From: Olleya sp. YS
GTDB lineage: Bacteria; Bacteroidota; Bacteroidia; Flavobacteriales; Flavobacteriaceae
Length of the DNA: 64,000 nt
Assembly: GCF_029760915.1 (NCBI RefSeq)
Contig: NZ_CP121685.1
Span: 1,462,001-1,526,000 of the forward strand
Direction: 5' to 3'
The notes below the pieces were generated by a model, which was given only the letters and a program-made list of their open reading frames with translations, was not told the origin of the DNA and did no database searches. Both the position numbers and the translations under genes were made by a program. Below are positions 19,756 to 45,301 of the stretch, piece after piece. Each line of letters opens with the position of its first letter. Position 1 is the stretch's first letter.

Positions 19756-20346
19756 ATGCTCCAGGAATTTTGGATAAATGTACAATACGGAATTAATCAT
19801 GTACTAGATATAAATGCTTACGATCATGTTTTGTTTTTAATTGTTTTAGCTGTACCGTATCTTTTTAGAGATTGGAAGCGTGTATTGTGGTTAGTTACCA
19901 TGTTTACTATTGGTCATTCTATATCGTTAGTATTGGCTAGTTTTGGAAAAGTCAAGGTTGATAGTAATTTAATTGAGTTTTTAATACCATTAACCATTTT
20001 AATAGTCGCTACTTATAACGTTTTTACCGCTGGTAAGACTGCTAAAAGCCAAAAGATTGGGTTGTTATTTGTGTCTACTTTGTTTTTTGGATTGGTACAC
20101 GGGTTTGGGTTTGCTAGAGAGTTTAGAATGAATCTTGATGAAGGTGATAATAGAGTAATTAAACTTTTAGAATTTGCCTTAGGTATAGAAATAGCACAAA
20201 TAATAATTGTTTTTATAGTTCTGTTTTTAGGGTATCTCTTTCAAACGGTATTTAGATTTTCTAAACGTGATTGGATTATGGTTGTTTCTGCAATAGTCAT
20301 TGGATTAGTTATCCCAATGTTACTAAATAGTCCGTTTTTAGACTAG
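19756..20346 (+). CDS. HupE/UreJ-like membrane protein
   Basis: A 196-residue protein with about six hydrophobic segments. The opening QYGINHVLDINAYDHVLFLI, the segment TMFTIGHSISLVLA, and FFGLVHGFGFA with histidines in the membrane match the HupE/UreJ_2 family of small membrane proteins. Some members are linked to nickel/cobalt uptake, but most bacteroidete copies have no hydrogenase or urease nearby. None is seen here, so the substrate is unknown. It is followed at 118 bases by the dCMP deaminase gene. Confidence 0.85.
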   Translation: MLQEFWINVQYGINHVLDINAYDHVLFLIVLAVPYLFRDWKRVLWLVTMFTIGHSISLVLASFGKVKVDSNLIEFLIPLTILIVATYNVFTAGKTAKSQKIGLLFVSTLFFGLVHGFGFAREFRMNLDEGDNRVIKLLEFALGIEIAQIIIVFIVLFLGYLFQTVFRFSKRDWIMVVSAIVIGLVIPMLLNSPFLD

Positions 20347-20464: not shown

Positions 20465-20896
20465 ATGCCAAAACAAAAACAACTTAAATACGACAAAGCA
20501 TATCTTAGAATTGCTACAGAATGGGGAAAACTGTCTTATTGTAAACGTAAACAAGTTGGTGCTTTAATAGTGAAGGATAGAATGATAATTTCTGATGGAT
20601 ATAATGGCACACCAACAGGATTTGAAAATTTTTGTGAAGATGATGATGGATACACCAAATGGTATGTATTGCACGCAGAAGCTAATGCTATATTAAAAGT
20701 AGCCTCATCAACACAATCTTGTAAAGGTGCAACTTTATACATTACAATGTCACCTTGTAAAGAGTGTAGTAAGCTAATTCATCAAGCTGGCATTATTCGT
20801 GTAGTATATCATCAAGGATATAAAGACGATTCTGGGCTTAAGTTTTTAGAAAAAGCAGGAATAGATATACAATTAATAGAACAATTAGACGCGTAA
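20465..20896 (+). CDS. dCMP deaminase family protein (cytidine/deoxycytidylate deaminase fold)
   Basis: The 143-residue zinc deaminase carries the two family motifs: HAEANAI (H70, catalytic E72) and MSPCKEC (C98, C101). Its length and the SYCKRKQVGALIV..SDGYNGTP start match the ComEB/dCMP deaminase group, which turns dCMP into dUMP to feed thymidylate synthesis. The stop codon shares one base with the start of the S41 protease gene (TAATG at 20894-20898), implying coupled translation. Confidence 0.92.
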   Translation: MPKQKQLKYDKAYLRIATEWGKLSYCKRKQVGALIVKDRMIISDGYNGTPTGFENFCEDDDGYTKWYVLHAEANAILKVASSTQSCKGATLYITMSPCKECSKLIHQAGIIRVVYHQGYKDDSGLKFLEKAGIDIQLIEQLDA

Positions 20897-35380: not shown

Positions 35381-37654
35381 TTATTCAGGGCTCTCAGTTA
35401 TTGTAGCTGGTTCTACAGAACTATCATGAGAGTTGTAGTATTCTTCTAAAAGATTCATAGTAGCACTTAATAAATCTTTAGTTTCTAATAATAAGCTAAA
35501 ATACAATGTTGTATTTTTAGGACTAGATTCTTCAGTTCTTGTACGTGCAACTTGCTTTACAATTTTTGAAGTTACTAAATCAAACATTTCTTTTTTACGA
35601 TCAATAATAGCTCCAATTTGCTCAAAAGAACGAGAGTCAAAAGCATTTTTAGTATCATTAAATAAAAGTTCTAAAGCATCATCTACTTCTTTTAGCTCTT
35701 TAATTTGACTAAATTTTAATTTCTTATGATTGTTATTAATGTGCTTATGACTGGCTTTAGAAATGTACTCTAAAGATTGAGTCATGTCTTGTAAATAACC
35801 AAGAATATTAATGTAGAAGCTACTAGCTCTTAAACTAGTTTCATCTAAGTTTTTAATAAAATAAAAGATGTTATCTCTCAAGCTGTCTACTTCAGTTGAT
35901 AGCTTAGTTATTTGTTTTTTATTCTTTTTAAGTAAAGCTAAATCTTGTTTTGCTAAACCTTTAATGGCATTGGTGTAAATTCTGTTTCCACGCTTTACAA
36001 CACTTGAAATATTATTTGCACTTTCATGTATCACACCTTGTACAGAGCTGCTTCCAGTCTCTTTTAAGCTATCTTCTTCAATGGTTTTATTAGAAGATTC
36101 TTTATGCGATTTGTAGTTTCTGTATAATAAAAATGCAGTAACTAATAGTAAAATAGGAATCATGACTTCTTGATTCCAGTTAATTAAGAAGACTACAGAA
36201 CCTGCTGCTACAAATGCACCAATTGCAGTACCAAACCATCCACCAATAACGTTAAGTACACCAGCAACTCTATATACAGCGCTCTCTGCTCCCCAAGCTC
36301 TATCAGCTAAAGAAGTACCCATTGCTACCATAAAGGTTACGTAAGTTGTAGATAAAGGCAGTTTCATTGATGTAGCAATTGCAATCAATACACCAGCTAC
36401 CATTAAGTTAACAGATGCTCTAATCATATCAAAAGCAGGAGCTTCAATACTTTGGTCTTTATTAATTAAGACTTCTGGTTTGTTAAAACTCTGTCCTATT
36501 TTCTTCTGAATAGACATTGGTATTATAGCACTAAAATATTTAGATAGAGAAGATGATCCTTTAACAACAGCTCTTGATAATGCGTTAGGCTGAAATTTTT
36601 CATGTGTATCACCTTGACGCGATAAGCTTAATTCTGTTTCGGCAACTGTTTTTGCTTTTTTAGAAAACCATAACGTTAATACCATTATACCTCCTGCAAT
36701 AAATAGTAATAACGGTTCTGCAGGTACTTTTTTATCTAAAACACTCATTAACATAGATGAGTCCATACCATTAGCAATCCATGCTTCATAAGAGTGGTAA
36801 GCAGCCATAGGGACACCAATAAAGTTTACTAAGTCATTACCAGAAAAGGCTAATGCTAAACCAAATGTACCAACTGCTATAACAATTAATAAAGATGTCT
36901 TTTTACTTAATTTTTCAAAAATGAAAGACAACAATGTCCAAAACCCAAAACCACCAAGAATGATAAAGATTTCATTACCTTCTAACATGCCTTTTAGTTC
37001 TTTATAATAAGGGGTTCCTTTTAATCCTTTTAAGAAAATAAAATAAGTAATTGCGGTTAATGCTACGCCAGAAAAAATGATTCCAAAGTTTTTAACTTTG
37101 TTCTCATAGTTAAAAGTGAATATTAAACGCGATACCCATTGCACAACAGCACCAACCGTAAAGGCTATAAAAACAGAAAGTAAAATACCGCTTATAATAG
37201 TTATGGCTTTATCTGAAGCTATATATTTGCCTAAGTCAGTAAACGTTTCTGAAGGTTCGCCACTTATTTTTATTAACGCCATTACAACAGCTGCACCTAA
37301 TAAATTAAATACGATAGAAACGGTTGTAGAAGTAGGTAATCCTAGTGTGTTAAAAAAGTCAAGTAATAAAATATCTGTAATCATTACTGCCATGAAGATG
37401 AGCATAATTTCGCCAAATTCAAACTGGGCAGGTACAAAGATACCTTTACGTGCAACTTCCATCATTCCGCTAGAAAAAACTGCACCAATAAAAATACCTA
37501 AACTAGCAACAATCATAATTGTTCGCATAGATAGTACTTTAGATCCTATTGCAGAGTTTAAAAAGTTAATAGCGTCATTACTAACACCAACAATAATGTC
37601 AAATACTGCTAAAACAGTAATGGCAATCAACATAAATAAATAAATATTATCCAT
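35381..37654 (-). CDS. Inorganic phosphate transporter (PiT family) with C-terminal PhoU-like domain
   Basis: 757 residues. The PiT permease has its two conserved segments: GVSNDAINFLNSAIG near residue 24 and the related SMKLPLSTTYVTFMVAMGTSLAD after residue 410, the latter paired with LGLPTSTTVSIVFNLLGAAV. From about residue 540 to 730 follows a hydrophilic, helical domain (SLRDNIFYFIKNLDETSLRA...) like the PhoU/DUF47 proteins that usually are separate and regulate PiT. The fusion suggests built-in control of phosphate uptake. It lies downstream of the porin on the same strand and has its own phased repeat promoter at 37678-37720. Confidence 0.93.
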   Translation of the reverse strand: MDNIYLFMLIAITVLAVFDIIVGVSNDAINFLNSAIGSKVLSMRTIMIVASLGIFIGAVFSSGMMEVARKGIFVPAQFEFGEIMLIFMAVMITDILLLDFFNTLGLPTSTTVSIVFNLLGAAVVMALIKISGEPSETFTDLGKYIASDKAITIISGILLSVFIAFTVGAVVQWVSRLIFTFNYENKVKNFGIIFSGVALTAITYFIFLKGLKGTPYYKELKGMLEGNEIFIILGGFGFWTLLSFIFEKLSKKTSLLIVIAVGTFGLALAFSGNDLVNFIGVPMAAYHSYEAWIANGMDSSMLMSVLDKKVPAEPLLLFIAGGIMVLTLWFSKKAKTVAETELSLSRQGDTHEKFQPNALSRAVVKGSSSLSKYFSAIIPMSIQKKIGQSFNKPEVLINKDQSIEAPAFDMIRASVNLMVAGVLIAIATSMKLPLSTTYVTFMVAMGTSLADRAWGAESAVYRVAGVLNVIGGWFGTAIGAFVAAGSVVFLINWNQEVMIPILLLVTAFLLYRNYKSHKESSNKTIEEDSLKETGSSSVQGVIHESANNISSVVKRGNRIYTNAIKGLAKQDLALLKKNKKQITKLSTEVDSLRDNIFYFIKNLDETSLRASSFYINILGYLQDMTQSLEYISKASHKHINNNHKKLKFSQIKELKEVDDALELLFNDTKNAFDSRSFEQIGAIIDRKKEMFDLVTSKIVKQVARTRTEESSPKNTTLYFSLLLETKDLLSATMNLLEEYYNSHDSSVEPATITESPE

Positions 37655-37677
37655 AATTTTTAATTAAAATAAGTTTG

Positions 37678-37720
37678 CAAATATCTTAAGAGTTTTTGAT
37701 AAAGATGTTATCCTAATGTT
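37678..37720 (-). promoter_or_regulatory. Candidate Pho-type promoter of the PiT gene
   Basis: On the minus strand, two AACAT units (first A at 37720 and 37709) are 11 bases apart. They lie 39 and 28 bases upstream of TTTG (37681-37678) within GATATTTG, a one-mismatch match to the Bacteroidetes -7 TAnnTTTG. The PiT start is 24 bases further on. The same phasing is seen at the porin and the TonB-dependent receptor. Confidence 0.55.
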
Positions 37721-37730
37721 ATGATTTTTG

Positions 37731-38933
37731 TTAAAAATGAATATCAAAACCAAGCCTAAAGGTAATGTTGTCGTCATTACCATTAACAGAGGTGTAGCTT
37801 ATATCAGACTGAACTTTTAATTTATGTCCAACAAAAAATTTATTTACACCCAATGTATATTGATCCGTAGGTAAAGCACCAGTTATAGATTCATACTCTA
37901 CAGTTGTATATCGTGCAGCAATTTCGTAATTATTTTTAAACAAATAACCTGCTTGTAGGTTTAATGCATTTCCAGTTAAAACTACATCACCTGTTGGTGT
38001 TACGCCATCCGCTTCTGTTGCAATTTCATTATCAGCTGTACGTTTAGCATATTCTCCTATAAAAGAGAAGCCTTGGTATTTAAACATTGCATCAGCAAAG
38101 ATGGTTGTTTGATCAGTTTCATAAATAGTACCATCTGTACGTATCATATAATCTCCTGCAAATCCACGTTCTCTAACTGCATCTTGGTTAAAGTTATATG
38201 TAAAACCAGCCATTAATTTTGGTTTTTCTTCTCGCTTTAAATCAGATTGACTGTAATCTCCTTTAGATTTAAAAGCTCCAAATGGTAAAAATTCTACTCT
38301 AGCAGTATATTGTAAACCACCTTCGTTTCCTTCGGTAACATTACGACCTTCACCTTGTGATATAGAGAATTTTTCACGCATTAAAAAGTTGCCTCCTAAA
38401 TTTGATTTATGCCTAATCTGAATACCTAAATCACGATCTATATTAAAACGACTGTTTAACAATGAGCGATCAATTAATTGAAGGTTAGCAGATGACACAA
38501 CACGCTCAACGTTACCTGGTAACTTTGTTTGTCCTGCCCAAAGCTCCCAGTTTTTAGCAAATTTCCACATGATAACTGCATCAAGAATGTACCTTGGTGT
38601 GTTTCTATTAAATTGATTTGCACCAGAAATATCTCTATTAGATAAACCTAATTCTAATTTGTATTTAAGTTTTGGACTATAAGCAAAACCGTCAAATTTA
38701 AGACGAGCACGACGTAAAATAAAGTTTTGTTGGCCAGTACCGTATTGGTTACCATCATGATCCCAAGAAGTGTTAGATCTAAACTGAAAACGTGGTGCAA
38801 ATTTAACGCTAAACGAACTGTCTTTTGCAGTAAAATTAATTAACCCTTTACCAAAAGAAGTATCGCTAATTTCTTGAGCGTTTACAAATAAAAATGAGCA
38901 CAAAATTAGTGCAAGTGTAATGTTAAGTTTCAT
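37731..38933 (-). CDS. Phosphate-selective porin O/P family outer membrane protein
   Basis: The frame is open from 38969, but the signal peptide MKLNITLALILCSFLFVNAQ starts at the ATG at 38933, giving 400 residues. The mature protein is a beta-barrel with KFAPRFQFRSNTSWD, FILRRARLKFDGFA, WAGQTKLPGNVERVVSS and a terminal GFDIHF, all typical of the OprO/OprP (PF07396) family. It would admit phosphate or polyphosphate through the outer membrane. It lies directly upstream of the PiT transporter, and phased repeats in front of it fit phosphate control. Confidence 0.9.
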   Translation of the reverse strand: MKLNITLALILCSFLFVNAQEISDTSFGKGLINFTAKDSSFSVKFAPRFQFRSNTSWDHDGNQYGTGQQNFILRRARLKFDGFAYSPKLKYKLELGLSNRDISGANQFNRNTPRYILDAVIMWKFAKNWELWAGQTKLPGNVERVVSSANLQLIDRSLLNSRFNIDRDLGIQIRHKSNLGGNFLMREKFSISQGEGRNVTEGNEGGLQYTARVEFLPFGAFKSKGDYSQSDLKREEKPKLMAGFTYNFNQDAVRERGFAGDYMIRTDGTIYETDQTTIFADAMFKYQGFSFIGEYAKRTADNEIATEADGVTPTGDVVLTGNALNLQAGYLFKNNYEIAARYTTVEYESITGALPTDQYTLGVNKFFVGHKLKVQSDISYTSVNGNDDNITFRLGFDIHF

Positions 38934-38958
38934 TATAATTATTAGTTTTTTGTCGCTG

Positions 38959-39000
38959 CAAATAACCAACTCTAATGTTAACTTAATGTTTCCTAATGTT
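38959..39000 (-). promoter_or_regulatory. Candidate Pho-type repeat array upstream of the porin
   Basis: Three TAATGTT copies on the plus strand (38973-38979, 38984-38990, 38994-39000), spaced 11 and 10. Read toward the porin these are AACATTA units at 17, 28 and 38 bases from TTTG (38962-38959). The porin start codon is 26 bases past that TTTG. Confidence 0.6.
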
Positions 39001-39019
39001 TAACTTTTTGAATAAAAAA

Positions 39020-39044
39020 AGACTGCTTTGGCCAAAAGCAGTCT
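39020..39044 (-). terminator. Minus-strand terminator with no assigned gene
   Basis: AGACTGCTTT (39020-39029) pairs with AAAGCAGTCT (39035-39044). Seven A's precede it on the plus strand, giving a U-tract only for minus-strand transcription; no T run follows on the plus strand. The nearest gene upstream on that strand is more than 600 bases away behind another terminator. Confidence 0.75.
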
Positions 39045-39214
39045 CATTAGAAATCATAACAATGTAGTCGACAAAAACTAATAGATTATATGAATTACTA
39101 ATTGTTTGTCTATAGACATTAACAAATATCAATACTAAAAGTAATTTTAATGTAACGCTAATATTATCTAATTATTAAGGATTAGAAAGTAAATTGAATC
39201 ACATAAACATCTAA
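39020..39214 (-). ncRNA. Candidate small RNA, possibly Pho-linked
   Basis: A minus-strand transcript of roughly 170-190 bases would run from a TATTTTAG (39218-39211, one mismatch from TAnnTTTG) to the intrinsic terminator at 39020-39044. The repeat array at 39235-39274 lies just upstream; its phase to this -7 is off by one base from the other three promoters on this strand. No reading frame above 13 codons is seen before the terminator. This is inference from signals only. Confidence 0.3.
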
Positions 39215-39234
39215 AATACAGCAATTTGCAATTT

Positions 39235-39292
39235 TAATGTTAAATTAATGTTATGTAAACGTTGCATAAATGTTATCTAAGCTTTATATTTG
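39235..39292 (+). promoter_or_regulatory. Four-unit repeat array and -7 element upstream of the MORN-type gene
   Basis: TAATGTT (39235-39241), TAATGTT (39246-39252), AAACGTT (39257-39263) and AAATGTT (39268-39274) are spaced exactly 11 bases. The -7 match TATATTTG is at 39285-39292, and the GTT of the last unit is 17 bases before its TTTG. The start codon is 25 bases downstream of the -7. The geometry resembles PhoB boxes overlapping the upstream promoter element. Confidence 0.65.
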
Positions 39293-39317
39293 ATAGATAA
39301 TATCAAAATCCATAATT

Positions 39318-39677
39318 ATGAAGAAATCAATTTTAGTTTTAATTGCCTTTTCAATTACTGTGGTTTCTTTTGCACAACAAAAAAGAGATTTAAAACTTAA
39401 CAAGGATACTAATTTAATAGAAGTTGTTTATTATCATGACAATGGAGTTGTAAGTCAAACAGGAGCTTACACTACAGATGGTAAATTGCAAGGTGAATGG
39501 TTAAGTTTTGACATGGAAGGCAAAAAACAAGTTTCAGCAAGTTATGATAATGGAAAAAAAGTCGGCAAATGGTTTTATTGGAGTGAAACGACTCTAAAGG
39601 AAGTAGATTATGATAACAACACTATAGCTAATGTTAGCGAATGGGAAATTAAATCTCCTGTTGCGACTAGTAATTAG
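39318..39677 (+). CDS. Small exported MORN/YwqK-type repeat protein
   Basis: 119 residues with a signal peptide (MKKSILVLIAFSITVVSFAQ). The mature part has repeated strand pairs of the MORN/YwqK type: VVYYHDNGVVSQTGAYTTDG, LQGEWLSFDMEGKKQVSASY and DNGKKVGKWFYWSE. Homologues in flavobacteria are sometimes labelled as nicotinic acid mononucleotide adenylyltransferase; nothing in the sequence supports that. No function is known. The array upstream and the surrounding phosphate genes suggest it is phosphate regulated. Confidence 0.8.
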   Translation: MKKSILVLIAFSITVVSFAQQKRDLKLNKDTNLIEVVYYHDNGVVSQTGAYTTDGKLQGEWLSFDMEGKKQVSASYDNGKKVGKWFYWSETTLKEVDYDNNTIANVSEWEIKSPVATSN

Positions 39678-39691
39678 ATAGTTAAATTATT

Positions 39692-39731
39692 AAATAAAAA
39701 AAGCCTTGCAATTGCAAGGCTTTTTTTATTT
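39692..39731. terminator. Bidirectional terminator, 40-base perfect palindrome
   Basis: The stretch is fully self-complementary around GCAATTGC, with seven A's and seven T's flanking the AGCCTTGC stem. It separates the MORN-type gene from the convergent lipoprotein gene. Confidence 0.95.
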
Positions 39732-39743
39732 CTTTCTTAGAGT

Positions 39744-40913
39744 TTAGTTTATTGTCCAATCCGCTCCCCAAGTTGCGTAATCAGTTGCTGTAGCATTACC
39801 TTCGCCTGTATAAAAATCTGCATCAGTAAAAGTCACAGTAGTATCGTTTTTTACTTTTGTAGTTATATCAACAAAAGTGACGTCAGTAACTTGTAAATCA
39901 TCACTTATAACTCCGTTTCCTGTATCTACATCGTCTAAATCAAAAGCCTCTAAATATCCTGTGATATGTACATTAGTAAATATACCTTGTGTACCAGCTC
40001 TTAGTCTAATAGCTTCAGCATGTCCCGCTGCAGTACCTTCTCCTACAATAGTAAGGTTGTTAACTGTAGGCCTAGAGAACACACCAGACGCATTACTAAA
40101 GTCAGTATTATATCCATCTGCTTCGATAGCTTTGTCATCAGACACTCTATTTGAAATATAAACATGATTTAAAGTTCCTGAAAAACCTTCAGTCCAGTCA
40201 ACCGAATCATCTTCAGCATTTATTACAGAAATATAATTTACGTTAACTGTACCTCCAAAAAACTCTATACCATCATCTTTACCAGCATATGCTTGAATAT
40301 AGTTTACATCTGTTCCATTACCCACGCCATAAAATGAAAAACCATTATTTTCAGATTGTCCATCTGCAGCTCCTCCAGAATATTCTACACGAACATAATT
40401 TAAAGACCCTGAGTCATCATCTGCTATATTACCACCATAAGGTAAACTTGCAATTTCTGAAGTAGCAGTGTTTGTACCAGTTACAGAATTTACTGGAGCT
40501 TTACCTAACAAAATGATTCCACCCCAATCTCCAGCTTGTGGGTTAGAAGCATCAGAAGTAAATACAATTGGGCAATCTGCTGTTCCATTGGCTATAATTT
40601 TTGCACCTTGAGAAATGGCAATATAAACATTAGCTCCTGATGATAAGGCTTGGATTGTCATACAAGCTGGAATGGTTAATGTAGTGCCACTAGCCATTAT
40701 TAACGAACCATTTAATTTGTAAGTATTATTAGCATCTAATGTTAAATCTTCAGTATAAGTTCCAGATAAAAATATGGTGTCTGAATTTGATCCTCCTCCA
40801 GAAGAATTGTTAATTACACTATTATCATTAATTATGATATCCGCAGTGTCATCTGTTGAGCAAGAGAATATCATCGATACTAATGCTAGCGATAAGATTA
40901 ATTGTTTTTTCAT
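39744..40913 (-). CDS. Beta-helix-like surface lipoprotein paired with a TonB-dependent receptor
   Basis: 389 residues. The signal peptide ends in a lipobox (MIFSC, Cys at about 18) followed by STDD, an acidic start like the flavobacterial surface-export signal. The rest is rich in G, N, D and T with repeated short strands (DWGGIILLGKAP, LNYVRVEYSGGA, VNYISVINAEDDSVDWTEG), suggesting a right-handed beta-helix. Homologues are often misnamed multidrug transporter; there are no membrane helices. It lies 34 bases downstream of the receptor gene and probably forms an uptake pair with it. Confidence 0.82.
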   Translation of the reverse strand: MKKQLILSLALVSMIFSCSTDDTADIIINDNSVINNSSGGGSNSDTIFLSGTYTEDLTLDANNTYKLNGSLIMASGTTLTIPACMTIQALSSGANVYIAISQGAKIIANGTADCPIVFTSDASNPQAGDWGGIILLGKAPVNSVTGTNTATSEIASLPYGGNIADDDSGSLNYVRVEYSGGAADGQSENNGFSFYGVGNGTDVNYIQAYAGKDDGIEFFGGTVNVNYISVINAEDDSVDWTEGFSGTLNHVYISNRVSDDKAIEADGYNTDFSNASGVFSRPTVNNLTIVGEGTAAGHAEAIRLRAGTQGIFTNVHITGYLEAFDLDDVDTGNGVISDDLQVTDVTFVDITTKVKNDTTVTFTDADFYTGEGNATATDYATWGADWTIN

Positions 40914-40947
40914 TGTTCTTGTTTTTTATTTTTAATTGTATTTAGTT

Positions 40948-43761
40948 TTAAAATTTATATTTAAGTTGAAGTCCTAAATTTAGTCCTCGTTTATAATCTG
41001 TAACTCCTTTTCCGTTAGCAGAAACAACTAATATGTCTCCTTGATTTTGATCTTCTCTTACATATTGTATGGTTGGGTTTAAAAGGTTTTTTGCACTAAA
41101 ATTAATTTCGAAATTATCGTTAATTGAATTTTTCCAAATAAAGTCTAATGTTGGTACGCCTTTTTCTACAATATTGCCTAAATCCCCAGAGCCCAATGCA
41201 TCAATACGGTCAGAGAAATAAGAGAATACTAAATTTGCTACTGGTTTGTAGTTTTCAAAAGTAGGAGAGTAGCTAATATCTGCGTTTAATAATAAAGGTG
41301 AAGCACCTTGTAAATTATCTTCATTTCTATTAAATGCTAAATCAAAAGTTCCATCTATATTTTCATATAAATCTTGTTTAGTATTCATATATGTTGCATT
41401 AACACCAAATGATAAGTTGGTATTGTCATTTTCATCCACCAAAATATTCTTTCTTAATTCAACTTCAAATCCATAAATTGTTGCTTGATCTCCTGTTCTA
41501 ACGTAGCGTTGTGTTCCTGTAGCGTCACCAACTACAACCAAGTTTATTGGATTATCTATTTGTTTGGTAAAAGCACCTACAGAAAATATTTCGCTTCTGG
41601 TAAAAAACCATTCATACTTTAAATCAATATTTAAGATATCTGAATAACCAAGTACATCAGGATTACCGCCTATTCTAGTTGAAACATCTTCATAAACAAA
41701 AGGAGCTATTTCTTTAAACTCTGGTGTTGATACTGTTTTGCTGGCTGAAAAACGTAGATTTTGATCTTCATTTAAAGCATATTTAATATTCAAACTTGGA
41801 AGTATAAATGTTTCATTGGAGCTTTTAGTGTCTATACCACTATTCCCTAAGTTAATCACATCATAAGAAATATTTTGTTCAAAACTCTCTACTCTCACTC
41901 CAGGTACAAATAACCATTTGTCTCCTGCTGTAATCTCAGCATCTAAATAACCAGCATAAATATTAAGTTTACCGTTATAAGTGTTTTCAAATAGTCCTGG
42001 TCTGTTCGTATTTGATAATGTTGGAAATGGTTTTAACACTTTAATTTCATAAATTCCGTTTGATTCGTCATTTAGATTCAAGTTTTCTAAATTGAAAACA
42101 GAATCAAAATTATTGACATCTGTAATCTGGTAATCACCATCTACAATATCATAACCATATCTAATGTTATTAAACTGTCTAGTTTTATGACGACCATTAT
42201 ATCCAAAATTTAATTTTAGATTTTCGTTGGCTTTGTAAGTAAGATTAATACGACCATTATATTCATCGTCTTCAATTTTTTGGAAATAACGTTGGTTATC
42301 AAAAACTACATTACTGTAAAATGTCGGGTTGGTATTAGGGTTATTATCCAACGCAAATTGATAGTTTTCTACGCTAAAACGCTTTCTGTCTGGTTGATCT
42401 GCAAACACTTTGTTATAACCAAAACCCCAATCTAATTCTAGTTTTCCAAATTTATGATTTCCAAGCAATTGATTTACAAACATTCTTGTTTGGTCAAACT
42501 GTCTATTTTGCTGATAAAAACCCTTATCTGTTTCAATTATAGCGTCTCTATTTCTACCTTGTCCATCGATACCAAAATAACCAACTTCATCAGAAGAGCT
42601 ATTAATAAATACTGAATTAAAACTAATTCCGTTATCGCTATTAATTTTATAATTTAAATTCGCCATTGCTGTAGTGGTAGTAGAATATTCATATTCTTCA
42701 GCTACATCAAAAGCTTTTTTCTCTACAGTCGTAAAATCAACGTTTTTACCTTGTCTGTATTCGTATTTGTTTTCAAAACTTCCCGTTAAAAAGAAACTTA
42801 ATCTAGAGCCATTTTCAAAATTAAAAGAGCTACCACCAGATGCTCCGTAAGAGACATTTATAGGTGTAGCAACAGTTTCTGGGTCTACACCATGAGACAA
42901 AACAACAGCAAATGGATTATGCTCATACCTTCCATAATAACCAAAATATCCAGTGCCTTCATTTCTAATAAAATTTTTGTCAATAGCATTGGTATTAAAT
43001 CCTGTGCCAGAAAAAGCATCTATAAATGTTGCTCCTTTGTGTTCCTTAGATGTGACATCAACGTTACCAGCTGAAAAATCTCCATAAAATTGTGCTGCAT
43101 ATGCTTTACTTATTGACACATTTTGAATGACGTCTGAAGAGAATAAATTTAGGTCAATATTCTTTTTGTTAACATCATTAGATGGTAATGATAAACCATT
43201 CATTGTTGTGTTTAAATATCTATCACCTAAGCCTCTAACATACACATTGCTAGAGCCTTCTTGCTTAGAAACACCAGATATTTTAGCAACAGCTCCAGCT
43301 GCATCACTAACTCCTTTTCTAGATAATTCGTCAGCACCAATACTTTGCTTGATTTCTACAGCTTTTTTCTGTTCTAGCAAAAGTGCAGTTTCACTTTCGC
43401 GTTTAGTGGTAACTGTTTCTAATACGACTTCATCTAAAGCTGCAGCACTAGCCGACATAACAACATCCAAAGTAGTGGTTTGTCCAGATGTAACTGTAAC
43501 AGGTAATCTTTGGGTTTGATAACCAACAAAACTAAATTCTATAGTGTAAGATCCTGCTTCTAAATCCGTAAAAGTATAAGAGCCTTCAAAATCAGATGTT
43601 GTTCCTGTTGATGTGCCTTGAATTAAAATATTGGCAAATGCTAAAGGTTCATTATTAAATTCTTTATCTGTTATTTTTCCAGAAATTGAGCCTGTTTGAG
43701 AATATACAACAACGCTAAATAGAGTAAAAAATAAGTAAGTAAGTTTTTTCATTTTGAACAT
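40948..43761 (-). CDS. TonB-dependent outer membrane receptor with carboxypeptidase-regulatory-like N-terminus
   Basis: A 937-residue receptor. A signal peptide is followed by a CarboxypepD_reg-like domain (about 22-110, GSISGKITDKEFNNEPLAFA), a plug domain (about 130-240, with KISGVSKQEGSSNVYVRGLG and PSNDVNKKNIDLNLF) and a 22-strand-type barrel ending LNLGLQLKYKF. The start could be either ATG at 43761 or 43752 (MKKLTYLFF). It imports a TonB-dependent substrate; its promoter has the same phased repeats as the phosphate genes, so a phosphorus compound is a reasonable guess, not shown. The lipoprotein gene follows in the same operon. Confidence 0.93.
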   Translation of the reverse strand: MFKMKKLTYLFFTLFSVVVYSQTGSISGKITDKEFNNEPLAFANILIQGTSTGTTSDFEGSYTFTDLEAGSYTIEFSFVGYQTQRLPVTVTSGQTTTLDVVMSASAAALDEVVLETVTTKRESETALLLEQKKAVEIKQSIGADELSRKGVSDAAGAVAKISGVSKQEGSSNVYVRGLGDRYLNTTMNGLSLPSNDVNKKNIDLNLFSSDVIQNVSISKAYAAQFYGDFSAGNVDVTSKEHKGATFIDAFSGTGFNTNAIDKNFIRNEGTGYFGYYGRYEHNPFAVVLSHGVDPETVATPINVSYGASGGSSFNFENGSRLSFFLTGSFENKYEYRQGKNVDFTTVEKKAFDVAEEYEYSTTTTAMANLNYKINSDNGISFNSVFINSSSDEVGYFGIDGQGRNRDAIIETDKGFYQQNRQFDQTRMFVNQLLGNHKFGKLELDWGFGYNKVFADQPDRKRFSVENYQFALDNNPNTNPTFYSNVVFDNQRYFQKIEDDEYNGRINLTYKANENLKLNFGYNGRHKTRQFNNIRYGYDIVDGDYQITDVNNFDSVFNLENLNLNDESNGIYEIKVLKPFPTLSNTNRPGLFENTYNGKLNIYAGYLDAEITAGDKWLFVPGVRVESFEQNISYDVINLGNSGIDTKSSNETFILPSLNIKYALNEDQNLRFSASKTVSTPEFKEIAPFVYEDVSTRIGGNPDVLGYSDILNIDLKYEWFFTRSEIFSVGAFTKQIDNPINLVVVGDATGTQRYVRTGDQATIYGFEVELRKNILVDENDNTNLSFGVNATYMNTKQDLYENIDGTFDLAFNRNEDNLQGASPLLLNADISYSPTFENYKPVANLVFSYFSDRIDALGSGDLGNIVEKGVPTLDFIWKNSINDNFEINFSAKNLLNPTIQYVREDQNQGDILVVSANGKGVTDYKRGLNLGLQLKYKF

Positions 43762-43774
43762 TAAATTCTTGATG

Positions 43775-43851
43775 CAAAGAAACCCACATTTTGTAAAGTC
43801 AAGGTTAACTAGAGGTTAATACTTAATCACTAAAAAGTTAGCTAAAGGTTA
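43775..43851 (-). promoter_or_regulatory. Candidate Pho-type repeat array and promoter of the TonB-dependent receptor
   Basis: GTTA occurs on the plus strand at 43804, 43815, 43837 and 43848 (spacing 11, 22, 11). Toward the gene these are AAC units at 28, 39, 61 and 72 bases from TTTG (43778-43775) in TTTCTTTG. A TTG lies 17 bases before that octamer, matching the Bacteroidetes -33/-7 layout. Confidence 0.6.
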
Positions 43852-43957
43852 TGTAAATGAAGTGTTTTCTCAATTTTAGAAACATTTAGTTAACATTAAA
43901 AAATAAGTATTCATTAGTTTTCAAAATACTTATATTGCATCAGTTTAAATTATTACT

Positions 43958-45301
43958 ATGAATTGGGAACAATTACTCTCTTTAAAGCGCTTTGGCGACA
44001 CTAATAAAAGATTAAGACAAGAACAAGATGAGACACGTTTAGGCTTTGAGGTAGATTATGACAGAGTCATATTTTCTTCAGAGTTTAGAAGTCTACAAGA
44101 TAAAACACAAGTTATCCCACTATCTCAAACAGACTTTGTACATACTAGGTTAACACATAGTTTAGAGGTTAGCGTTGTAGGAAGGTCTTTAGGAAGAAAA
44201 GTAGGTCAAAAAGTATTAGAGAAACATCCACATTTACAAGAAATACATGGGTATTTACCAAATGATTTTGGTGCTATTGTCGCTTCTGCAGCTTTAGCAC
44301 ATGATATAGGTAATCCTCCTTTTGGACATTCTGGTGAAAAGGCAATAGGGGAATTTTTCAAATCTGGAAAAGGCAAACAATACAAAGCAAACCTACTAGA
44401 TAAAGAATATCAAGATTTATGCGATTTTGAAGGAAATGCTAACGGATTTAAAATTGTTACACAAAGTAGAGCAGGTCGTGAAGGTGGATTAAGACTTAGT
44501 TATGCAACACTTGGAGCCTTTACTAAATACCCAAAAGAGTCGTTGCCAAAAAAACCGACTAACAATATAGCAGATAAAAAGTATGGGTTTTTTCAATCAG
44601 AAAAAGAGGCTTTTATTGATTTAGCAAAAGAATTAGGTTTACAAAAGAGAGGAGATGCAAAAAATTTGAGTTTTTCTAGACATCCTCTTACTTTTTTAGT
44701 CGAAGCTGCAGATGATATCTGTTATACTATTATTGATTTTGAAGATGGAATCAATTTAGGATTAATCGAGGAAGAATATGCGCTAGAGTATTTAATAAAC
44801 TTAGTTAGACAAACTATTAATACCAAAAAATATCATCAGTTAACCAATACTAAAGACAGAGTTAGTTATTTACGTGCTTTAGCCATTAATACATTAATTA
44901 ATGAAGCTGTAGATATTTTTATGAAAAATGAAGAGGCAATTCTAGAAGGAAGTTTTAATATTAGTCTTTTAGATAAAAGTCAATATGAGGCACAGATTAA
45001 TGACATCATTAAATTAAGTGTCGAAAAAGTCTACCAATCCAAAGAGGTAGTCGATAAAGAAATAGCAGGATATCAAGTGTTAAATGCCTTATTAGAAACG
45101 TATACCAAAGCAGTGAATAATACTTTTCAAGGTAATGCTTCAAATTATGACACACTAATTTTGAAAGGTTTGCCTACAATTTTAGACTTAGACTCAAGTA
45201 ACTTATATGAAAGATTATTAAATGTATGTCATTATGTGTCCTCATTTTCAGATAGTGAAGCTATAATTCAATACAAAAAAATAAGAGGGTTTAGCTTTTA
45301 A
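43958..45301 (+). CDS. dgt: Deoxyguanosinetriphosphate triphosphohydrolase
   Basis: The 447-residue HD-domain enzyme splits dGTP into deoxyguanosine and triphosphate. Metal-binding residues are visible: H67 in RLTHSLEVS and H115-D116 in ALAHDIGNPPFGHSGE; a later aspartate is in EAADDICYTIIDFEDG. The N-terminus SSEFRSLQDKTQVIP and VHTRLTHS are family hallmarks. It may balance dNTP pools together with the ribonucleotide reductase, but there is no operon link. It is transcribed away from the TonB-dependent receptor. Confidence 0.94.
   Translation: MNWEQLLSLKRFGDTNKRLRQEQDETRLGFEVDYDRVIFSSEFRSLQDKTQVIPLSQTDFVHTRLTHSLEVSVVGRSLGRKVGQKVLEKHPHLQEIHGYLPNDFGAIVASAALAHDIGNPPFGHSGEKAIGEFFKSGKGKQYKANLLDKEYQDLCDFEGNANGFKIVTQSRAGREGGLRLSYATLGAFTKYPKESLPKKPTNNIADKKYGFFQSEKEAFIDLAKELGLQKRGDAKNLSFSRHPLTFLVEAADDICYTIIDFEDGINLGLIEEEYALEYLINLVRQTINTKKYHQLTNTKDRVSYLRALAINTLINEAVDIFMKNEEAILEGSFNISLLDKSQYEAQINDIIKLSVEKVYQSKEVVDKEIAGYQVLNALLETYTKAVNNTFQGNASNYDTLILKGLPTILDLDSSNLYERLLNVCHYVSSFSDSEAIIQYKKIRGFSF

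Follow-up and report, generated by a model that had tools for sequence, protein, structure and literature searches.

Phased repeats and a predicted small RNA point to a flavobacterial Pho box and to porin control in Olleya sp. YS

Introduction

Phosphate regulons usually have a Pho box in front of the regulator gene too, and MicF, MicA and OmrA are small RNAs that control porins. Pho boxes are described as tandem 11-base direct repeats in phosphate-regulated promoters, with a consensus that differs between species (PMC4415409), and NcS25 of Burkholderia is described as another porin-controlling small RNA (PMC10117139). Here we analyse a 64,000-nt stretch of the Olleya sp. YS genome (NZ_CP121685.1, 1,462,001 to 1,526,000; hereafter the window, whose coordinates are used below). 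Phased repeats with 11-base steps lie there in front of the genes for a PiT phosphate transporter, a porin, a small MORN-like protein and a TonB-dependent receptor, four promoters that the original prediction, made from the letters of the window, had put forward as a candidate phosphate regulon. It overlooked another phased promoter, which precedes a predicted small RNA gene beside the porin.

Like the Pho boxes of E. coli, B. subtilis and Streptomyces, the window arrays are tandem 11-base direct repeats. They differ in their unit, which is TTAACATT and not CTGTCAT or GTTCACC, in being paired with the TTTG element of Bacteroidetes, and in being reversed before phoB and the MORN gene. The TTAACA-type boxes of B. 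subtilis and cyanobacteria resemble this unit. The mismatch to the E. coli box, correctly pointed out in the original prediction, is not defining across phyla because the Pho box consensus is species-specific (PMC4415409).

The predicted RNA resembles MicF, MicA, OmrA and NcS25 in its short length, in ending at a terminator and in its predicted pairing with the leader of a message for an outer-membrane protein. Unlike them, it has one co-evolving target that usually lies beside the RNA gene, a phosphate-type promoter, and predicted pairing from the first base of the message. Rfp18, a small RNA of Flavobacterium psychrophilum, likewise has a stem-loop predicted to pair; it differs, in a comparison by description only, in that its described targets are metalloproteases and an adhesin (PMC9723704). 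The phosphate regulon of F. johnsoniae likewise includes a phoBR operon with a TonB receptor, a pectate-lyase-like lipoprotein and OprP, and the terms Pho box, promoter, motif, binding site and small RNA are absent from the main text of that paper (PMC8115612). Within the accessible parts of the open-licence literature, a scope that leaves most subscription papers outside, we recognised no description of the array motif or of the small RNA.

Results

A shared repeat phase is conserved across relatives

The original prediction had measured by eye the distances from each repeat trinucleotide to TTTG. On recomputation all four sets proved exact (Table 1), and the PiT promoter has extra AACs at 13 and 51 bases from TTTG. 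The worry that such repeats are chance matches in AT-rich DNA can largely be set aside: a two-unit matrix trained on porin and PiT promoters of other genomes gave 14 window matches of at least 10 bits, 11 of them within 37600-43960, compared with a mean of 4.5 and a maximum of 7 in 12 dinucleotide shuffles, and at a threshold of at least 16 bits it gave 4 matches compared with a shuffle mean of 0.17. The training set of this porin+PiT matrix included 36 PiT promoters picked via an array-like filter, which makes it circular for PiT. A porin-only matrix, built without these filter-selected promoters and applied to the 300 bases upstream of genes, scored 10.3 for PiT, 29.4 for the porin, 20.7 for the MORN gene and 27.4 for the receptor; 2 of 30 other window open reading frames (ORFs) reached 10. 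The receptor score stems from the plus-strand array at 43879, which is shared with the divergent dgt gene (the receptor's own array scores 14.4 with the two-unit matrix), and a porin-only score of 12.2 upstream of the lipoprotein gene falls inside the receptor gene.

For the comparison with relatives we searched 60 genomes of the family, one per genus, with the porin protein; 41 matched, and the best 30 loci were taken. Together with 80 named loci, the nearest from Olleya aquimaris at 94%, this gave 110 porin loci, and the promoter alignments include close relatives without thinning. When 100 porin promoters were aligned on TTTG, AAC stood at -28 and -17 and AAT at -39, and 91 small RNA promoters aligned in the same way had units at -50, -39, -28 and -17. 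Among 103 PiT starts, taken without any array filter, 96 had the TTTG anchor and 7 did not; AAC was present at both -28 and -39 in 84 of the 96, and any other phase in at most 7. A match to the MORN protein occurs in 83 of the 110 loci; when 77 of the promoters were aligned on TTTG or TTTA, G peaked at -50, -39, -28 and -17. Direct repeats with an 11-base period, as expected of a Pho box, are thus found in the window and in relatives, and the single phase claimed originally is kept well beyond this genome. Given that the phase is retained across many PiT, porin and MORN promoters, we conclude from the alignments that it is under selection. This conservation is the strongest evidence that the arrays are real.

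At positions -26 to -24 before TTTG, the one spacing scanned for the TTG expected of a -33 promoter element, the window promoters have CAT (PiT, porin and small RNA), CCT (receptor) or TGC (MORN), and none has TTG. Exact matches in a whole-genome pattern scan were confined, for the 17-phase, to the porin and to 221546 and, for the 28-phase, to PiT. In a further such scan, at loose settings, the best among 100 matches listed, all of them on the plus strand, lies upstream of phoB.

The motif accompanies phosphate genes and PhoB homologues

The gene after the porin is PiT in 103 of the 110 loci and pstS in 5; of the two others, one ends about 0.7 kb past the porin (L031; L and G numbers are our handles for loci and genomes) and one, on a short contig and mis-anchored (L025), has pstS just downstream. 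We scored the 300 bases before the best PhoB homologue in the 30 best of the 60 genomes, own genome included. The porin+PiT matrix exceeded 10 bits in 21 of 30, compared with 21 of 450 shuffles, and the porin-only matrix reached at least 10 bits in 12 of 30, compared with 27 of 900 shuffles. The porin+PiT matrix had no match at 19 control genes, whose upstream stretches are partly coding (many matches start inside the gene). An array also lies upstream of phoB-phoR in the own genome. In genome G002, PiT, porin, small RNA, beta-helix lipoprotein, TonB receptor, phoB and phoR form one contiguous block, with identities to the window genome of 37% for the receptor, 40% for the lipoprotein and 73% for PhoB. 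Set beside the window genes by description only, the TonB receptor and lipoprotein of the F. johnsoniae phoBR operon have values of 8.0 and 9.9 in a phosphate-depletion table, read here as log2 fold change (PMC8115612).

The proposal that the arrays are a flavobacterial Pho box is, in our assessment, well supported by the conserved phase, by the motif before PhoB homologues, by PiT or pstS beside the porin and by the G002 block. The repeats probably bind a phosphate-starvation regulator; PhoB would bind them and low phosphate would activate the genes behind them. The original prediction had suggested testing its matrix in relatives against shuffled sequence, and that comparison came out in its favour for most parts, PiT promoters and PhoB homologues among them, and yielded little for pstS and phoX (see Discussion).

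The phoB arrays (L268-L297) lie mostly about 100 bases upstream, are mainly oriented opposite to the gene and stand farther from the -7 element than those of the porin set; the MORN-gene array is also reversed.

A predicted small RNA lies between the porin and the MORN gene

The candidate small RNA gene is upstream of the porin on the same strand, and in both respects it differs from a cis-antisense RNA, which is encoded opposite its target. At the level of sequence it has its own promoter and an intrinsic terminator, as expected of a trans-acting base-pairing small RNA. The -7 box has been placed at -12 to -5 (PMC9723704), which puts the predicted starts at 39118 for the small RNA and at 38954 for the porin mRNA, the latter beginning GACAAAAAAC. 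Transcription from these starts is likewise predicted. In the predicted fold, a central hairpin holds the UUUUUGUC loop region; 4 of 5 small RNAs include this hairpin in their best fold. Terminator pairs changed on both sides at 7 of 7 pairs, and with RNAalifold only the terminator and the pairs that close the loop were recovered. Searching 37650-39330 (E up to 5) and four loci against Rfam returned no family at its gathering score; the best chance match was ncS025, with 21.4 bits compared with a gathering score of 46.

The predicted small RNA and the porin leader have changed in step

In a co-fold of the window's own pair, the duplex runs from the first base of the leader through the AUG, with a net energy of -10.5 kcal/mol after both partners are unfolded. 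In each of the 90 loci examined the best duplex extended to the AUG, a count made with no swapped control. Swapped partners were the reference for pairing energy. For 26 one-per-genus pairs, cognate combinations averaged -21.4 kcal/mol compared with -18.0 for swapped ones (0 of 20,000 permutations), and for all 88 distinct pairs the values were -21.5 and -19.0 (0 of 20,000). A second test used 33 further pairs and gave -22.1 and -17.8 (0 of 50,000). Its pairs came from 40 further covariance-model loci, which yielded 34 pairs, one dropped as a duplicate and a mis-anchored one (L399) kept; the six loci giving no pair were L361, L369, L389, L364 (contig end), L368 (false match) and L371 (porin about 3 kb away).

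A test by column (56 rows, 20 columns) located the covariation. In columns 10, 11, 12 and 13, respectively 1, 0, 8 and 0 of 2000 permutations were as good as observed, and positions at which both partners had changed were still paired in 3 of 3, 8 of 8, 2 of 3 and 13 of 13 cases. Mapped by parsimony onto a porin tree with 109 tips, the commonest double changes of columns 11 and 13 require 6 and 5 gains or losses. The core GTTTTTGTC/GACAAAAAC of RNA gene and leader is nearly invariant, and conservation of UUCAU cannot be assigned to one role because stem pairs overlap the pairing region. Complementarity to the target is thus kept via compensatory change, as expected of a trans-acting base-pairing small RNA. 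These comparisons show that, across many genera, the sequence of the predicted small RNA and the beginning of the porin message have changed together, and the RNA very likely controls the amount of porin.

The predicted RNA is widespread in the family and separable from the porin

In its own genome the covariance model finds one convincing copy (Table 1), the next best match having an E value of 0.002. At E 1e-5 it matches 130 of 299 family genomes, equal to 109 of 236 sampled genera, one match (G231, L368) being false on inspection. In an order-level sample 7 of 196 genomes matched, all of them Flavobacteriaceae, a figure given here without the number of the 196 that fall outside that family. 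Weak model matches in genomes without an upstream copy resemble terminators of other genes; an exception is L211, just upstream of the L109 porin, which may be a decayed copy.

By script, 95 of the 110 porin loci have RNA and leader and none has the RNA alone. Corrections to these counts are that the local match of L137 is false, the true RNA gene being 3.1 kb off, that L025 and L123 do have the RNA, and that L095 cannot be judged. In most loci the RNA element and the leader are 108-213 bases apart on one strand. About 3.1 kb separates the RNA gene and the porin in Altibacter lentus (L137; L210, L267) and G089 (L413), with complementarity kept as judged by eye, and the intervening carbonic anhydrase, sulfate permease and small gene are oriented against the RNA. 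The RNA gene is therefore separable from its target, as a trans-acting RNA should be, in these two lineages, perhaps through one event.

In one genus (G047, G280; L362, L370) the RNA and leader stand beside a different outer-membrane-type protein of 335 aa, whose gene the leader immediately precedes in G280 and precedes by about 200 bases in G047. The alignment of the G280 protein with the porin is marginal (E 0.009). The leader appears to have outlived the porin gene in this one genus.

G152 has two small RNA copies with a leader (L365, L366), one of which precedes merely a short porin-like start.

As for other targets in the own genome, the leader pattern with two mismatches occurs at 36 sites, compared with 88 in a control; among 13 inspected sites three are near an ORF start (L055, L060, L061).

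Discussion

We consider it fairly likely that the arrays are the Pho box of the Flavobacteriaceae, driven by PhoB, and that the small RNA is driven together with the porin, pairs with its leader and blocks its translation. The PhoB homologue would bind 11-base units (about TTAACATTNNN) in tandem where the upstream promoter element would otherwise lie. Phosphate shortage would then switch on PiT (pstS in other genera), the porin, the receptor/lipoprotein pair, the MORN protein and phoBR, and the same regulator would drive the small RNA gene beside the porin. The RNA would fold into a 5′ hairpin, a central hairpin and a terminator, and its central part would pair with the porin mRNA from the first base through the start codon, thereby blocking ribosome entry. 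Such a block would cap porin synthesis, an incoherent feed-forward loop. We lean, with a little less assurance, towards the broader statement that this is a family-wide phosphate-driven small RNA whose main target is one porin and which is antisense to the whole leader, so that the feed-forward loop would be conserved in nearly half of the sampled Flavobacteriaceae genera, with RNA and leader kept after the porin was replaced in one of them (G047, G280).

Several results weigh against these readings. On the side of the regulator, the porin+PiT matrix exceeded 10 bits upstream of pstS in only 3 of 10 cases and upstream of phoX in 1 of 3, just 3 of 21 PhoX loci having been scored. By a hand count on two sequences, the array before phoB stands 45-57 bases from a TTTA and so does not follow the shared phase. 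The OprP-like gene of the F. johnsoniae phoBR operon, likened to the porin by description, is phosphate-unresponsive (-1.3, P 0.25; PMC8115612). As to breadth, loose whole-genome patterns had no excess over a reversed-pattern control (6 vs 6, 91 vs 130, 131 vs 172 and 570 vs 783), and because loose scans failed to beat this control only exact or near-exact matches are informative. On the side of the RNA, the central hairpin is absent from the best fold of L012, a slightly shorter own small RNA favours an alternative fold in which the UUUUGUC bases are unpaired about 0.35 of the time, and the central hairpin is only moderately stable (65 sequences, mean z -1.1, 11 below -2). Since a core is common to most leaders, other leaders frequently outscore the cognate one (a median of 18.5 of 88 do better), and gapless covariation ends after column 13, later columns pairing poorly. 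Twelve of the 110 porin loci are without the upstream RNA (L015, L031, L034, L097, L102, L108, L109, L112, L113, L130, L139, L144), and five of these keep a leader-like stretch (L015 in part, L102, L108, L109 and L130); L108 and L109 also retain a terminator-like stretch that may be a decayed RNA copy. G014, G133 and G249 (L361, L389, L369) have the small RNA without an adjacent porin and may have other targets or recent porin loss; the two remote porin homologues of G014 are both without a matching leader. The carbonic anhydrase and permease content common to Altibacter lentus and G089 suggests that the 3.1-kb separation may be a single ancestral rearrangement. At L061, near 1490-1530, a gene starts inside a two-mismatch leader match, a possible second target. 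Finally, if PhoB activates RNA and porin alike, repression needs a rationale, such as a cap or timing.

The sign of the effect is the point on which the closest alternative differs. The small RNA might pair with the porin mRNA and raise its output by shielding the 5′ end from decay, in keeping with pairing that begins at the predicted first mRNA base; since both promoters carry the same array type, the two RNAs should moreover be made together. The duplex that reaches the AUG in every locus examined favours a block of translation over shielding of the 5′ end, and we regard shielding as rather unlikely; most likely the RNA restrains porin translation. It is decidedly improbable that no separate RNA acts and that the element is a cis-acting attenuator, folding onto the porin leader within one transcript read through from the upstream promoter. 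Such an attenuator would suit the short distance and common strand of element and leader in most loci, but a strong intrinsic terminator lies between them, the porin has its own conserved promoter, and in Altibacter lentus and G089 complementarity is kept across about 3.1 kb of opposite genes, perhaps through one shared rearrangement.

The identity of the regulator can be questioned separately. The own genome has 20 PhoB-like matches, none of the matches in the 60 genomes reaches the NCBIfam cut-off for PhoB, and the motif has no genome-wide excess at loose settings, all of which would suit binding by another OmpR-family regulator. We think this quite unlikely, considering that many genera have the motif ahead of their best PhoB homologue and that a histidine kinase gene follows that PhoB gene both in the own genome and in G002, in the latter beside the porin/PiT/receptor block. 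That the matching stretches of RNA gene and leader form an inverted repeat serving as a protein site in DNA, as their nearly invariant core might suggest, is extremely improbable: compensatory changes preserve pairing at the flanking columns, the element has hairpins and a terminator, and the spacing ranges from 108 bases to about 3.1 kb. We therefore retain translational repression by a PhoB-driven small RNA as the preferred reading.

For a major family of marine bacteria, the arrays provide a Pho box that can be put to the test. The RNA and its leader would be a case of small RNA/target co-evolution far from the usual model organisms, one that ties phosphate stress to outer-membrane permeability. 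Because the predictions for the RNA, its target and the positions that pair reach single-base resolution, compensatory mutants can test the mechanism directly.

Features of the window

Table 1 Promoter arrays, predicted RNA elements and genes (window coordinates)
Feature	Position	Strand	Basis or detail
PiT promoter array	37703..37722	-	AAC 39 and 28 bases before TTTG 37681-37678
Porin promoter array	38973..39003	-	AAC 38/28/17 before TTTG 38962-38959
Small RNA promoter	39123..39176	-	TTTG 39126-39123, units at 17/28/39/50; 91 relatives aligned
MORN-gene promoter	39239..39292	+	GTT 50/39/28/17 before TTTG 39289-39292; array reversed relative to gene
Receptor promoter array	43775..43852	-	AAC 72/61/39/28 before TTTG 43778-43775
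Further strong array between receptor and dgt	43879..43898	+	25.8 bits, second best in window
Predicted small RNA, about 105 nt	39014..39118	-	Conserved unit with phased promoter and terminator; covariance model E 3.6e-20 in own genome
Predicted small RNA 5′ hairpin	39118-39107	-	Limits set by hand
Predicted small RNA central hairpin, with UUUUUGUCG at 39077-39069	about 39102-39046	-	Limits set by hand
Predicted small RNA terminator stem	about 39043-39020, T run to 39014	-	Limits set by hand
Porin mRNA 5′ end to start codon, GACAAAAAACTAATAATTATAATG, predicted small RNA target; predicted +1 at 38954	38931..38954	-	Sequence position and pairing
PiT phosphate transporter, 757 aa	35381..37654	-	PF01384 (PHO4), E 6.2e-29
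Porin (Porin_O_P), start codon 38933-38931	37731..38933	-	PF07396, E 1.7e-13
Small MORN-like protein, 119 aa	39318..39677	+	MORN_2 E 0.01, below cut-off
Beta-helix type lipoprotein, 389 aa	39744..40913	-	40% identity over 295 columns to G002 protein beside phoBR
TonB-dependent receptor	40948..43761	-	Pfam; 37% identity to receptor adjoining phoB in G002

Pfam matches bear out the gene names first given to PiT, the porin and the TonB receptor; the MORN label is only weakly backed, by the match below cut-off listed in Table 1. A Pfam scan of the window lipoprotein at E 0.001 gave no match, and its G002 homologue has a weak Beta_helix match. The array at 43879-43898 has an orientation that suits dgt, which is divergent from the receptor, yet it has no TTTG at the shared phase. 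A lone 14.5-bit array match lies at 20304-20323 on the minus strand, upstream of an ORF at 20465.

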